From Microcystis aeruginosa NIES-4325 (GTDB taxonomy: Bacteria; Cyanobacteriota; Cyanobacteriia; Cyanobacteriales; Microcystaceae), in contig NZ_BJKP01000025.1 of NCBI RefSeq assembly GCF_008974145.1, forward strand, positions 1 through 51,737: a stretch of DNA of 51,737 nt. Reading direction: 5' to 3'. Every line of letters starts with the position of its first letter. The stretch's first letter is position 1. The notes beneath the pieces were generated by a model, which saw only the letters and a list, made by a program, of their open reading frames with translations, was not told the origin of the DNA and made no database searches. The translations under genes were made by a program, and so were the position numbers. Shown one piece after another: positions 3,558 to 8,703 of this stretch.

Positions 3558-5714
3558 GTGACCATTCTCTGCTGGCTCGATCACATTAGTGCTTCTGATC
3601 GCCCCCTGGTGGGGGAAAAAGCTTTTATTGCCAGTGAATTACACCAGCGAGGATACCCAATTATCAGGGGATTTGCCATTTTTAACCGCATTTTTGCGGA
3701 ATTTTTGGAAACTATCAATAATGCTGACTCGTTCCTGACTGATTTTCCGCAGTCTTCCCTCTATTTAGACGTAGATAACGCAAAAGCTCTGCAATTAGTT
3801 GCCAAAGAAAGTCGGCGCGCCATTTTACAAGCGCAAATTCCTCCTCTCTGGTTAGAAGAACTAGCGGCGGCCGTGGCACAATTATCCATGGCTACCCTAG
3901 TATGGCGCTTTTCCTTACCTGCTCATCTAGCTCGGCGAACTCTCGGTTTATTTTCCGCCCCCATCAGTGGAATTAAAACAGATAATCTAGAAAATGCCCT
4001 AAAACAAGCTTGGGCGGAGTTATTCACCGCCAGAAGTCTATTTTATTGGCGAAAAGTGGGAATTGGTTTAGAAAACATTCAATTATCTTTACTGGTACAA
4101 CCGTTATTACCAGCCAATTGTGCGGGAAATGTGCTGATTAATGAGGATAACTGGCAAATTCAGGCGGTTTGGGGATTAGGACACAGTTTAGCTAATGGAG
4201 AAGTGGCACCGGATACCTATATTATCGATCGCTCTGGTCAATTACGCAGTCGGCAATTAGGCAATAAATCCAGGGCTTATTATCTCAATAGTGACAGTAA
4301 TCTGCTTGCACCACAATTATTAGCGCCCAGTTTACAGGAAAGCTACTGTTTAGATAATTTCGCCCTCGATCGCCTTTGTCAACTGGTTCAATCTCTACTG
4401 GCGGAAAAACCCACTCTAACCAGCATAGAATGGCTGATGATGCTGGATGGTCAAATTTATATTCTTAACTGTCACAGTCAGGAAATCACCGCTACTACCT
4501 CCCATTATCCCTTAAGAGGATTAGGGGCATCCCCGGGGTTGGCATCGGGAGTGGCAAAAGTTATCGGCAATTTCGACTCCCCAGAGGCAAATTTTCAGGA
4601 TTGCATTCTGGTTACTACTAATTTACCTCCGAAAAAACTGCCCCATTTACGCCAAATTCGAGGAATGATCACGGAACAGGGGGGATTAACTAGCCATGGA
4701 GCCATTTTAGCCCGGGAATTAGCCATTCCTGCCGTTGTCGGGGTTAAAAATGCCACGGAAATTATCCGCTCAGGCGAGATAATTTTAGTAGATGGTACGA
4801 GGGGAATTATTTCTCTAGCATCTCAGGAAAAGATTTCCTTACCCCCTCCACCCCCCAGAGAAACCGACGGGACGGCAATTGCTACCCGTTTGATGGTTAA
4901 TCTCAGTCAAACTGAAAGTATTGTCGGAATCCAAGAACTGCCTATTGATGGGATCGGTTTATTGCGATCAGAATGGATGATTTTAGAGTTACTTTCTCAG
5001 CGTAATCTAGAAGAATGGTTAACACCAGAGCATCAAGAAGCATTGATCGAGAGATTAAGTGATTTAATCGCACAATTTGCCCTTAGTATCCAACCTAAGC
5101 CTTTATTTTATCGTTCTTTTGATGCTCAACATTCGGCTAAAGACAGTCGGGGAACCCATGGTTATATTTTAGATCCGACTCTATTCGATCTAGAATTGCA
5201 AGCTTTACGACGGGTACAAACCACCGGCGCCAGCAATATTAATTTACTGCTTCCCTTTGTCCGCGGGGTTGAAGAATTTATTTTTTGCCGGCAACGGGTA
5301 CAGTCGGCTTTACTCACTCAAGTCCCTTCTTTCCAATTGGGGATAATGGTGGAAGTACCGGGGGTAATCTTTCAATTGAGGGATTATGTGCAAGCAGGGG
5401 TACAGTTAATCGCTATTGGTACTAATGATTTAACTCAATTACTTTTAGGCAGCGATCGAGAACATTTCTCAGAATATTTTAACGCCCGTCATCCCGCAGT
5501 CAGGGCAGCTTTAAAACAAATTATCACTCAAGCAAAAGTTTTACAGATTCCCTGTTCCATTTGCGGCATGGCCATCGTCCAGTATCCTGAACTTATCGAT
5601 GATCTGATTGCTTGGGGTGTGACTTCTCTTTCGGTGGATAGGGAAGCAGTTTTAGCCACTAGAGAGGCAATTGTTCGCGCCGAAAGAAGGTTTTTATTGG
5701 AAAATGGCAGATAA
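3558..5714 (+). CDS. PEP-synthase-like protein with degenerate ATP-grasp domain
   Basis: 718 residues with a GTG start; PEP synthases are usually about 800. The C-terminal half is well preserved: phosphohistidine domain with LTSHGAILARE (His380), then a PEP/pyruvate barrel with GIGLLRSEW, MVEVPG, GTNDLTQLLLGSDRE and Cys669 in CSICGMA. The N-terminal half aligns only loosely with the ATP-grasp domain. The VRSSA..ED....SFAGQ(Y/Q)-type nucleotide loop is missing, although the later stretch around VWGLGHSLANGEVAPD is kept. It may bind PEP or phosphorylate a partner without using ATP itself. It converges with the PlsY-dikinase gene 82 bp away, which has the opposite set of domains. True ppsA is probably elsewhere in the genome. 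Confidence 0.8.
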   Translation: MTILCWLDHISASDRPLVGEKAFIASELHQRGYPIIRGFAIFNRIFAEFLETINNADSFLTDFPQSSLYLDVDNAKALQLVAKESRRAILQAQIPPLWLEELAAAVAQLSMATLVWRFSLPAHLARRTLGLFSAPISGIKTDNLENALKQAWAELFTARSLFYWRKVGIGLENIQLSLLVQPLLPANCAGNVLINEDNWQIQAVWGLGHSLANGEVAPDTYIIDRSGQLRSRQLGNKSRAYYLNSDSNLLAPQLLAPSLQESYCLDNFALDRLCQLVQSLLAEKPTLTSIEWLMMLDGQIYILNCHSQEITATTSHYPLRGLGASPGLASGVAKVIGNFDSPEANFQDCILVTTNLPPKKLPHLRQIRGMITEQGGLTSHGAILARELAIPAVVGVKNATEIIRSGEIILVDGTRGIISLASQEKISLPPPPPRETDGTAIATRLMVNLSQTESIVGIQELPIDGIGLLRSEWMILELLSQRNLEEWLTPEHQEALIERLSDLIAQFALSIQPKPLFYRSFDAQHSAKDSRGTHGYILDPTLFDLELQALRRVQTTGASNINLLLPFVRGVEEFIFCRQRVQSALLTQVPSFQLGIMVEVPGVIFQLRDYVQAGVQLIAIGTNDLTQLLLGSDREHFSEYFNARHPAVRAALKQIITQAKVLQIPCSICGMAIVQYPELIDDLIAWGVTSLSVDREAVLATREAIVRAERRFLLENGR

Positions 5715-5796
5715 CCTCGGCAAAAGGGATGTTAGGAGTTGGCTGTTGGGGAAGATGTTAAGTACCCCAGATAGGGAACAGCTTGTCCCCTAATGC

Positions 5797-8547
5797 CTAG
5801 AGAATTTCAATAATTCCTTGACTACCATCGAGACGAATTAATTGACCATCTTTTAACAATTTCATGGCATGATGCACATCCATAACCGCTGGAATTCCGT
5901 ATTCTCTGGCAATAATAGCACCATGGGATAATTGTCCTCCCACCTCGGCAATAATGCCCACAGCCCGGGATAATAAAGGGGACCATCCTGAGTCAGTATA
6001 GGGAATAACGAGAATAGTATTAGGGGCAATTTCTAGATTTTGTAAGGTTGGCATAATTTTGACTCGTCCCTCCACTGTCCCCCCACTGGCGGCAATTCCC
6101 TGTAAGCGTTTTTTTGCAGTTAAATTTGAAACTAAAAATTCTTTTTTCGGTGGTTGTCCATAAACGATATAGGGAATATCGGTTAATTGATAGTTTTCTT
6201 GGAATTGTTGGCGACGCTGATGGATAATCTGATTAAGATTGGCGATTTTATTATTCTGACCTAACTGGGTAACTTCTGAGTAATTTAGATAAAATATATC
6301 TCCCGTCTCCGATAATATTTGCTGCTGTAACCAGAGGGTTTCCAAAGCGAGAAAATGCCAGCGTAGGTGAGCTAAAAGACGGGAGTAAATTTCAGTTACC
6401 TGGTTTTTGATATTTAATCTTTTTTGGACAGTATGGGAAGATTTAACTTTTTTATGGCTATTATTACCCGGACTATCTAAGGGGAGTTGTAGCAGCTCTT
6501 GGGGATTTTCTCGCCATCTCGGTATGGAAATATCAGTCCCCACTTCGCTTAAATAACCGTAGGTTTCTAACCAGAGGGAAAAAGCTGAGTCAAAATCTCG
6601 ATCAAGCGTATTTTTTCTCAGTTCAGATAGCGATCGCATTGAGGCTATTTCTGGTGCTTGGGAGTTATCTAATTTCTCAAAAGGTACTCGCGAAATACTG
6701 CGACGCAAAGCGAAGCTAAGAGGGGCAAGAATACTATAATAGGTAGCTTTTTTTAAGACGGTTAAAATTTCTTCAATTTGCCCTAAAATCTCCCCAGAAG
6801 ATAAAGCTTCTAGGGAAGTAGCGTTAATTTTTTCGAGCGTCGGGATAAAATAGGTTTTTTGATCTTGGCTAAAGTCTTTTTCTAACTGTAATTCCCGTCC
6901 TAAAAGTTTTAATAAACCAGGGGAATTAGCCAAGGTTGTCGTTAACGGTGGTTTGGTAAACTTTGCCCCTTTGGTCAGGAATTCTAAGCTTTCTGGAGGT
7001 AATCCCATGCGAAGGAAAATTGTTCCTAACAAAGAAGCATTAAAATAGGCTCTTTGATAGTGTAAAGTCGCTGTTTCATTGAAGTCCAAATCAATAGCTT
7101 TTTTGTCTAAAACTAACTGGAAAATATCTCCCCAAACTCCACAGGTTAAAGGACGATTAATCGACCAAGGCAAAGGACGAATCACTCCAGGTATAACTTC
7201 CGCAGCGATTTTTCTTGTCCAAATTGGCTGTAAATTAGTGATAGGACGGCACTGTAATAACCATAATTTTTGTCCGTCATGAGTCCATTCTATATCTTGG
7301 GGAATGCCATGATCAAGGGTTTCTAATTGCCGACAAAGATTAGCTACCTGTTGAATAATAGCCGGGGGAATATCTCCCTCTCCGATGATGATATTTTCTT
7401 CTAAATTAACTCGATAACTTTCGGGGGTGATTCTTCCCGATACAACTCTGGTGGCATCTCCGGGTAAAGCTTCAATAACCACATCTAAACTGAGAGGATT
7501 AATCGGATCACGACTGAAGGCAACTCCCGAAAAAACTCCTCGAATTTGTTCTTGAATTAACACAGCCATGGCCGTGTTTTCTTGACCTCGATCAAGTCGA
7601 TAATTAACAGCATTAGGATTATTATAGGAGGTTTGGCAACTTAAAATCGCCGCCGCTAAATTTTCTCGATCGACAACGTTAAGAATTGTAGTATATTGTC
7701 CGGCAGATGAAGCGGTTTCACTATCTTCTCCAATAGCGGAAGAGCGCACGACTAAGGGATGATTGATATCAGGATTAAGGGATTCTATCAACGGTTGTGG
7801 ATCATCCCCCGGTGGTAAAATCCAACCCCTAGGAATGGGATAACCAGCACGCTTAAGATAGGCTAGAGTGGCGGCTTTTTGTCCCACTTTTACAGTTGCC
7901 AGATTGTCATCAAGAGTTTGGATCGATCGATCTCCACGAAAAAAACGAAACATAGTTTTTGATTCATTGTTAACACTTGCTTCGGGTAAGTCTAAATCGT
8001 CGGCTATTTTTTGAAAAATTGCCCCTAATAGACAGGCTAAAGCAATGGCAGTTATAATATAACCTGAATCGTGGGGACGGCGCAAGGTGAGAATTAAAGC
8101 TAATAAAAATAATCCTACCAATCTACCCGTAGATTTTTCTCGAAAAATAGTAAAGCTAATCCCACTAATAATTGAGGTGAGAAAAACAGCGACAAAATCG
8201 TGAACCATTAATCCCCAGAAAACGTTAGTAGTTCCCGCACCTTTTCCTAACCAATAGCGCCCCATGACTAAGGCAATTAAAGCTAATAATTCCCAAGTGG
8301 ATCCGGTGGGAAAAAAGCAACGGGTTAGGAGAATAACGATAATTCCCTTGGCTGCTTCCGAAATTACCGCCAAAATTCCTACTAATTTACCGCCATGGTA
8401 AAAAGCGGCAGTTACACCGATATTACCAGTGCCTAATTGGGATAATTTACGTCCAGTTACGAGATAATTTATCCAATCGATCAGAGGCAATCCCCCGATT
8501 ATAGGACAGACTAAAAAAATAAATAGGGATCCCAAAATTTCTGTCAT
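5797..8547 (-). CDS. PlsY-like acyltransferase fused to an ATP-grasp/phosphohistidine dikinase
   Basis: 916 residues from the ATG at 8547. The frame stays open to a GTG at 8625, but the extra 26 residues precede the membrane domain and look untranslated. Residues ~1-185 are a multi-spanning PlsY (glycerol-3-phosphate acyltransferase) domain with diverged motifs GTGNIGVT and LGKGAGTT. Residues ~205-440 form a PPDK/PEPS-type ATP-grasp domain with VGQKAATL, PLVVRSSAIGEDSETASSAG, VLIQEQIRGVFSGVAFSRDP and DIEWTHDG. A helical middle region follows, then a mobile phosphohistidine domain with GGQLSHGAIIAREYGIPAV (His875). There is no PEP barrel, so the dikinase part has the three-domain layout of rifampin phosphotransferase. 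The acceptor is unknown; the fusion suggests a membrane-lipid or glycerol-phosphate-related substrate (inference). Confidence 0.85.
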   Translation of the reverse strand: MTEILGSLFIFLVCPIIGGLPLIDWINYLVTGRKLSQLGTGNIGVTAAFYHGGKLVGILAVISEAAKGIIVILLTRCFFPTGSTWELLALIALVMGRYWLGKGAGTTNVFWGLMVHDFVAVFLTSIISGISFTIFREKSTGRLVGLFLLALILTLRRPHDSGYIITAIALACLLGAIFQKIADDLDLPEASVNNESKTMFRFFRGDRSIQTLDDNLATVKVGQKAATLAYLKRAGYPIPRGWILPPGDDPQPLIESLNPDINHPLVVRSSAIGEDSETASSAGQYTTILNVVDRENLAAAILSCQTSYNNPNAVNYRLDRGQENTAMAVLIQEQIRGVFSGVAFSRDPINPLSLDVVIEALPGDATRVVSGRITPESYRVNLEENIIIGEGDIPPAIIQQVANLCRQLETLDHGIPQDIEWTHDGQKLWLLQCRPITNLQPIWTRKIAAEVIPGVIRPLPWSINRPLTCGVWGDIFQLVLDKKAIDLDFNETATLHYQRAYFNASLLGTIFLRMGLPPESLEFLTKGAKFTKPPLTTTLANSPGLLKLLGRELQLEKDFSQDQKTYFIPTLEKINATSLEALSSGEILGQIEEILTVLKKATYYSILAPLSFALRRSISRVPFEKLDNSQAPEIASMRSLSELRKNTLDRDFDSAFSLWLETYGYLSEVGTDISIPRWRENPQELLQLPLDSPGNNSHKKVKSSHTVQKRLNIKNQVTEIYSRLLAHLRWHFLALETLWLQQQILSETGDIFYLNYSEVTQLGQNNKIANLNQIIHQRRQQFQENYQLTDIPYIVYGQPPKKEFLVSNLTAKKRLQGIAASGGTVEGRVKIMPTLQNLEIAPNTILVIPYTDSGWSPLLSRAVGIIAEVGGQLSHGAIIAREYGIPAVMDVHHAMKLLKDGQLIRLDGSQGIIEIL

Positions 8548-8703
8548 TATATTTTCTGGATATAAAAAATAGTTACTTCTCGGTGGAGTCCTGTCAGGTA
8601 TCGGGATTAGAATAATTCGGACCACACTCCCTTAAATCTTATATAGTATTTTAGCTCTACCAACCCACGACATTATTTATTTTAAATTTTACTTTATAAA
8701 TAC

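Follow-up and report, generated by a model that had tools for sequence, protein, structure and literature searches.

Two neighbouring dikinase-like proteins of Microcystis aeruginosa: a cyanobacterial clade predicted to keep only the phosphoenolpyruvate half of the reaction, and a separate membrane-anchored dikinase

Introduction

The 51,737-nucleotide stretch of Microcystis aeruginosa NIES-4325 analysed here (contig NZ_BJKP01000025.1, forward strand; referred to as the window) carries two convergent dikinase-like genes: P1, on the plus strand (3558–5714; 718 residues from a GTG start), encodes a phosphoenolpyruvate (PEP)-synthase-like protein that has lost its ATP site, and P2, on the minus strand (5797–8547; 916 residues from an ATG start), joins a PlsY-like membrane domain to a dikinase of the rifampin-phosphotransferase (RPH) type. 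In the reading that we consider probable, P1 belongs to an old cyanobacterial clade reduced to the PEP half of the dikinase reaction, P2 is a separate, ATP-driven dikinase of the membrane, and the two have become neighbours by chance in a single genus. This reading builds on observations of domain content, of residue conservation and loss, of a single clade, of purifying selection, and of adjacency in one genus. An earlier note on this DNA had favoured the view that the two proteins together contain the parts of one PEP-synthase-like system, and had named as an alternative that they are separate paralogues brought together; with adjacency confined to one genus and different architectures in the two proteins, it is the alternative that has stood.

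Conserved and lost halves of P1

P1 aligns with PEP synthase (pyruvate, water dikinase; TIGR01418; PDB 8A8E, 9DAE, 2OLS) over most of its length and shows the same order of domains: an ATP-grasp domain (PPDK_N; residues 16–311, positions 3603–4490, Pfam E-value 7.2e-24), a mobile swivel domain (PEP-utilizers; residues 348–416, 4599–4805, 5.4e-25) and a PEP/pyruvate barrel (PEP-utilizers_C; residues 441–708, 4878–5681, 3.4e-37), all on the plus strand. As the earlier note had read, the swivel carries the phosphohistidine that PEP synthase also has, His380 (codon 4695–4697), and the barrel carries Cys669 (codon 5562–5564). P1 differs from PEP synthase in its ATP site, which is lost throughout the clade as sampled. 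Of eleven ATP-site residues that canonical PEP synthases share, the window's copy keeps three: the K of the GGK motif, the R of VRSS and the E of DIEW. The SATAED..SFAGQ loop and QxRP are absent, as is the D of DIEW. The loop that had been reported as unrecognisable is indeed gone, although the degenerate domain around it is still recognised at the E-value given above.

The pattern extends over 89 P1-like proteins (the window's copy, 67 named cyanobacterial loci, of which L186 is partial, and 21 further genome loci), set against 15 canonical reference enzymes (the PEP synthase of the same genome, 13 non-cyanobacterial enzymes and one from genome G041). The P1-like proteins retain at most 6 of the 11 ATP-site residues, a number reached by two members; the canonical enzymes retain 10 or 11. 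Within the loop, the E and D of SATAED are found in 1 and 6 of the 89 proteins, respectively, and the S and Q of SFAGQ in 5 and 0; the D of DIEW is found in 3, and the R and P of QxRP in 3 and 27. Where the R of QxR does occur (L155, L159, L168), the residues of the loop are missing. Conversely, all 89 proteins have the phosphohistidine and five barrel residues, the R of GLLRSE, the R of YRS, the E of AEVP, the D of ND, and the C of CG, and nearly all have the E of GLARLE (86) and the D of VRMSD (87). Outside this set lie 35 more P1-like loci (L011–L039, L081, L087, L115, L116, L119, L124), some from the same genomes as named loci, in which QxRP is absent and the histidine is kept (L124 is shortened at its N-terminal end). 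Read biochemically, these residues predict that in P1 the PEP half is conserved and the ATP half is lost.

In two P1-like proteins of family f24 (L111 and L112, from G089 and G278) the N-terminal domain is barely recognisable, with the histidine and the barrel intact.

A PEP synthase with canonical motifs is encoded separately in the same genome. P1 itself falls below the cut-offs of the curated NCBIfam models TIGR01418 (317.8 against 739.75) and NF005057 (340.9 against 598), and no curated model scored above its cut-off for P1 or for P2 among the best 25 of 27 and of 29 families, respectively. Annotation presumably labels P1-like proteins PEP synthase or PEP-binding protein; a search of the open-licence literature found nothing on the P1 or the P2 family.

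Origin and selection of the P1 clade

A maximum-likelihood tree of 68 rows, built from the swivel and barrel with the ATP-site columns excluded and assessed with 200 bootstrap trees, places all 45 P1-like rows, drawn from the 89 proteins, on one side of a branch with 100/100 support and 100% bootstrap, and on the other side 23 canonical rows, among them cyanobacterial PEP synthases. The loss of the ATP site thus looks old and single; independent losses are not favoured, as the P1-like rows form one clade. The Microcystis stem is long in this tree (0.76), and by P1 the closest named relative of the window, among the matches listed, is M. aeruginosa LEGE 91341 (97%).

A scan that relied on two peptide patterns found at least 572 relatives, of which the best 80 comprise 67 cyanobacterial P1-like loci and 13 others. 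The 13 come from Patescibacteria, archaea and unassigned bacteria, and each is canonical by its ATP site. No P1-like protein outside the Cyanobacteria was found among these 80, which does not prove that there is none. Genome G041, from outside the class, was called as having P1 at first and was found to carry a canonical-type enzyme; its locus (L113), an open frame of 1165 residues, exceeds the other canonical enzymes seen in length and encodes a PEP synthase whose ATP-site motifs are intact.

Among eight Microcystis copies of P1, the ratio of nonsynonymous to synonymous differences (pN/pS, from uncorrected proportions) is 0.20 in the N-terminal domain, 0.22 in the swivel and 0.15 in the barrel. 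The degenerate N-terminal domain is thus under purifying selection and not decaying, and the values of 0.15–0.22 in all three parts rule out a recent decay of P1. A domain that has lost its ATP site and is nevertheless retained under purifying selection, in a genome with a canonical PEP synthase, would also suit a catalytically idle P1, serving either as a sensor of PEP and pyruvate or, in mixed oligomers, as a tuner of the canonical enzyme. A pure sensor, however, could do without the phosphohistidine and the barrel cysteine, yet these are present in 89 of 89 proteins, and we regard an idle regulator as unlikely.

P2 and its PlsY-like domain

The open frame of P2 extends over 942 residues, back to a GTG at 8625, and contains an ATG at 8547. 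The latter is favoured as the start, because the copies of two other Microcystis genomes (G235, G237) match from query residue 27 in open frames of 916 residues, and because matches to homologues mostly begin at about query residues 17–36. The phosphohistidine is residue 901 of the longer frame and 875 counted from the ATG.

Pfam finds in P2 a PlsY-type domain (PF02660), an ATP-grasp domain (PPDK_N, 1.7e-40) and a PEP-utilizers swivel, and no match to PEP-utilizers_C at E≤1. The earlier note had read the ATP-grasp, His875 and the missing PEP barrel correctly; what it had overlooked is the PlsY-like domain (residues 40–199 of the 942-residue frame, positions 8029–8508, minus strand), which shows hydrophobic stretches and matches PF02660 with an E-value of 4.3e-16 (59.9 bits against a cut-off of 24.1). 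The ATP-grasp domain (7222–7890, limits approximate, taken from its motif set) has its catalytic residues; its K, R, D-[IV]-E, Q and R, together with the histidine, are present in all 41 distinct family members aligned. A middle region follows (6106–7221, limits approximate) at the place where RPH has its substrate-binding domain; it shows little sequence match to RPH, and 67 of its 365 positions are invariant among the 41 members. The swivel with the phosphohistidine (5815–6027; codon 5923–5925), established by Pfam, by residue reading and by the family alignment, completes the protein. It is mainly in this domain that P1 and P2 resemble each other (36% identity over 111 residues).

The closest relatives of P2 in the PDB, 5FBS and 5HV1, were deposited as phosphoenolpyruvate synthase. 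We take both to be rifampin phosphotransferases, in part on the basis of PMC4844700. With RPH, P2 has in common the ATP-grasp and the C-terminal swivel histidine; between the two lies the middle region, and a membrane domain is added at the N-terminus. P2 therefore did not come to lack the barrel by loss from the plan of PEP synthase, since its plan resembles that of RPH. P2 scores far below the cut-off for rifampin-inactivating RPH (NF041857; 234.9 against 999), and PMC4844700 portrays the family as dikinases of small molecules with mostly unknown substrates.

About the first 190 residues of P2 match the PlsY-type family above its cut-off, and they differ from PlsY (PDB 5XJ5; PMC5700162) at the glycerol-3-phosphate pocket, which that paper places at S35, R45, K104, N180, S142 and H177. 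In a weak alignment of P2 with 5XJ5 (E 0.73; the chain numbering of 5XJ5 runs one ahead of that of the paper, as we conclude from the GSGN motif), S35 is replaced by T, R45 by an invariant Y and K104 by an invariant A, and N180, S142 and H177 have no counterpart; in the same weak alignment His92 of the phosphate hole corresponds to an invariant R in the P2 family. At the position of PlsY Thr41 the P2 rows shown have S or T, so that the hydroxyl is retained, and the glycine loop is kept in part. Judged by these residues, the glycerol-3-phosphate pocket of the domain is lost. P2 reaches 22.8 with TIGR00023, for a cut-off of 137.2, and a true PlsY, with 179 bits and a match to 5XJ5 at 2.4e-28, is encoded elsewhere in the genome, which rules out the housekeeping acyltransferase as a role for this part of P2.

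A more elaborate role would have P2 make an acyl phosphate in place, the dikinase phosphorylating a carboxylate such as a fatty acid and the PlsY-like domain acylating a target other than glycerol-3-phosphate, as a counterpart of FakAB and PlsY joined in a single chain. PlsY does use acyl phosphate (PMC5700162), and a fatty-acid kinase that feeds PlsY is known; the retained hydroxyl at Thr41, the partly retained glycine loop and the GDSL-type hydrolase gene that accompanies P2, adjacent or close by, in 8 of 20 P2 neighbourhoods (one copy identified by Pfam) would fit as well. All six pocket residues, however, are changed or without counterpart in the weak alignment, so that the domain may be a mere anchor. 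Moreover, known relatives phosphorylate hydroxyl groups and are not known to act on carboxylates. We give this scheme little credence.

At the cut-off of E≤1e-60, P2 is found in 103 of 386 genomes of the phylum. In one genome (G266:C1:393713–394030) a match to the P2 swivel domain (40%) is interrupted by four internal stop codons and is perhaps what is left of a lost P2.

Adjacency and co-occurrence of the two genes

The stops of P1 and P2 lie 82 bp apart, as had been noted (gap at 5715–5796). In the places compared, adjacency of P1 and P2 is limited to Microcystis, and the spacing of 82 bp to the present genome. P2 occurs in the flanks of four of the 80 loci of the P1 scan, all four in Microcystis, and in those of none of 63 other cyanobacterial P1-like loci, of which 48 had flanks of at least 5 kb on both sides and 43 of at least 8.5 kb. 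Even within the genus the arrangement varies. Among seven Microcystis genomes, six, the window included, have both genes on one contig, and one (G355) has them on separate contigs; most copies seen are convergent, and in M. viridis (G235, locus L131) P2 (5665–8412) lies upstream of P1 (10001–12154) on the same strand, so that the genus has seen a rearrangement of gene order here. The gap measures 811–923 nt in four other Microcystis, where it contains short repeats, and about 600 nt in G095; the spacing of 82 bp is most simply explained by a deletion in the present genome.

Presence of the two genes was called across the 386 genomes at E≤1e-60, a cut-off that misses split matches. As called, P1 was present in 97 genomes and P2 in 103 (both in 87, P1 only in 10, P2 only in 16, neither in 273). 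A renewed search of the genomes with P1 only found an intact P2 in none of nine, the tenth being G041 with its canonical-type enzyme. Among the 16 with P2 only, a P1-like gene was found in three (G318, G011, G294) and was not seen in 13, of which 12 showed canonical motifs at the inspected loci and one (G119) was unreadable in the stretch taken. The corrected counts are both genes in 90 genomes, P1 only in 9, P2 only in 13, and neither in 274, the last called by the E-value cut-off alone. The locus in G119 (L226, G119:C1:3851443–3852570) is a PEP-synthase-like match within an open frame of 1236 residues, longer than usual.

With phylogeny ignored, Fisher's exact test gives 1.2e-57 for the table as called, 4.4e-61 for a nearly final table that still counts G294 as P2 only, and 2.8e-05 for the 104 genomes of the order (80/4/11/9 as called). 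We reject raw co-occurrence as proof of a link between P1 and P2, because it ignores phylogeny and because the cut-off misses split matches. The earlier note had suggested looking for conserved adjacency and co-occurrence in other cyanobacterial genomes: the adjacency is not conserved (0 of 63), and both genes occur in 90 of 386 genomes.

That P1 and P2 form one system, in which phosphate from ATP (through P2) or from PEP (through P1) would be swapped between their histidines, or in which one protein would control the other, agrees with their mostly convergent adjacency in Microcystis and with their joint presence in 90 of 386 genomes, against 9 with P1 alone and 13 with P2 alone (p <1e-55 for the as-called and the nearly final table, phylogeny ignored). 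Dikinases divided over two proteins exist, such as HpeHI, CreHI and PpsAB (PMC12167813). In these, however, the ATP-grasp and the swivel are on separate chains, whereas P1 and P2 each have a histidine of their own, as well as a donor site of their own, and are neighbours in one genus. Outside Microcystis the two genes were not adjacent in the places compared, and each occurs without the other: in family f8, P2 is listed for five genomes and P1 for none, and in family f24, five genomes have P1 only and one (G294) has both. The excess within the order, moreover, partly reflects shared ancestry. The pairing is therefore rejected on adjacency, orientation, spacing and presence over the 386 genomes and 80 named loci, neither the proposed PEP-synthase-like system nor a shared phosphoryl pathway having been borne out; we consider it very improbable.

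Other neighbours give little guidance to function. In 20 P1 neighbourhoods, a gene of the MgtC family lies beside or near P1 in seven (L075, L076, L078, L080, L087, L088, L074), and recF-like and P-type-ATPase-like genes, named from sequence by eye, occur in seven. Near the start of the window, at 87–1535, lies a gene for a WD40-repeat protein with seven very similar repeats; its relative in G310 is longer (702 residues), so that the frame may be incomplete.

Discussion

We return to the reading of P1 as a PEP-half-only protein and of P2 as an independent dikinase, and infer each reaction step proposed here, and the acceptors of both proteins, from sequence. In P1, PEP would phosphorylate His380 and pyruvate would leave, or the reverse; this half reaction (His + PEP → His-P + pyruvate) is modelled on Enzyme I of the phosphotransferase system (PTS) and on PPDK, whose PEP sites are alike (PMC5371819). 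As there is no ATP site, the phosphate would have to pass to another acceptor, a protein or a small molecule, which perhaps docks where the ATP-grasp domain of P1 once worked, in the way that HPr docks on Enzyme I. In P2, the PlsY-like domain would hold the dikinase to the membrane, ATP would phosphorylate the C-terminal histidine, and the swivel would hand the phosphate to a substrate bound by the conserved middle region. The substrate is perhaps lipid-soluble; that it is lipid-like is a guess from the membrane location.

Two known systems bear on P1. Enzyme I of the PTS shares its PEP barrel and swivel histidine, and the half reaction from PEP to histidine is likely the same. Enzyme I differs from P1 in its HPr-binding N-domain; in P1 no Enzyme I N-domain is found by Pfam at E≤1, and the degenerate ATP-grasp domain (PPDK_N) occupies that place. 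As no HPr-binding N-domain is found in P1 and no HPr in its genome at E≤1, we reject membership of P1 in Enzyme I. The second system is VadK of Mycobacterium, a dikinase relative likewise reduced to one half reaction, which illustrates that a cut-down relative can persist as a histidine kinase (PMC13400623). Proteins of the VadK type have lost the PEP domain; in P1 the PEP barrel is present and it is the ATP site that is lost.

Several observations weigh against this reading. Four ATP-site residues are often kept in the 89 P1-like proteins (the K of GGK in 59, the R of VRSS in 65, the E of DIEW in 49, the Q of QxRP in 56), so that some nucleotide binding may remain. In the barrel, 84 proteins have the N of SNDLTQ, and RGxxR retains its first R in 72 and its second in only 10, so that affinity for PEP or turnover may differ in the clade. 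The neighbourhoods of P1 show no clear acceptor or partner, and HPr (PF00381) was not found in this genome at E≤1, in a search whose control found PF00381 in 9 of 14 genomes, in 7 of them above the cut-off. Finally, P1 and P2 co-occur across the phylum far above independence, if phylogeny is ignored.

Cyanobacteria are not known to have a PTS. A bolder form of the argument would make the P1 clade the Enzyme I-like head of a PTS-independent, PEP-driven phosphoryl relay in Cyanobacteria, with the former ATP-grasp domain docking the acceptor and the ratio of PEP to pyruvate written onto a target protein or metabolite; we offer it tentatively, as possible though doubtful.

If the reading of P1 is true, cyanobacteria possess a histidine phosphotransferase driven by PEP, which sits where carbon metabolism branches between PEP and pyruvate, here in a genome in which no HPr was found. 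P1 would then be the mirror image of VadK, which keeps the ATP half (ATP to histidine) where P1 keeps the PEP half (PMC13400623), and metabolic models may be crediting P1-like proteins with a reaction that is beyond them. For the P2 family, the question becomes which substrate is phosphorylated by a dikinase that is bound to the membrane and carries a PlsY-like domain.

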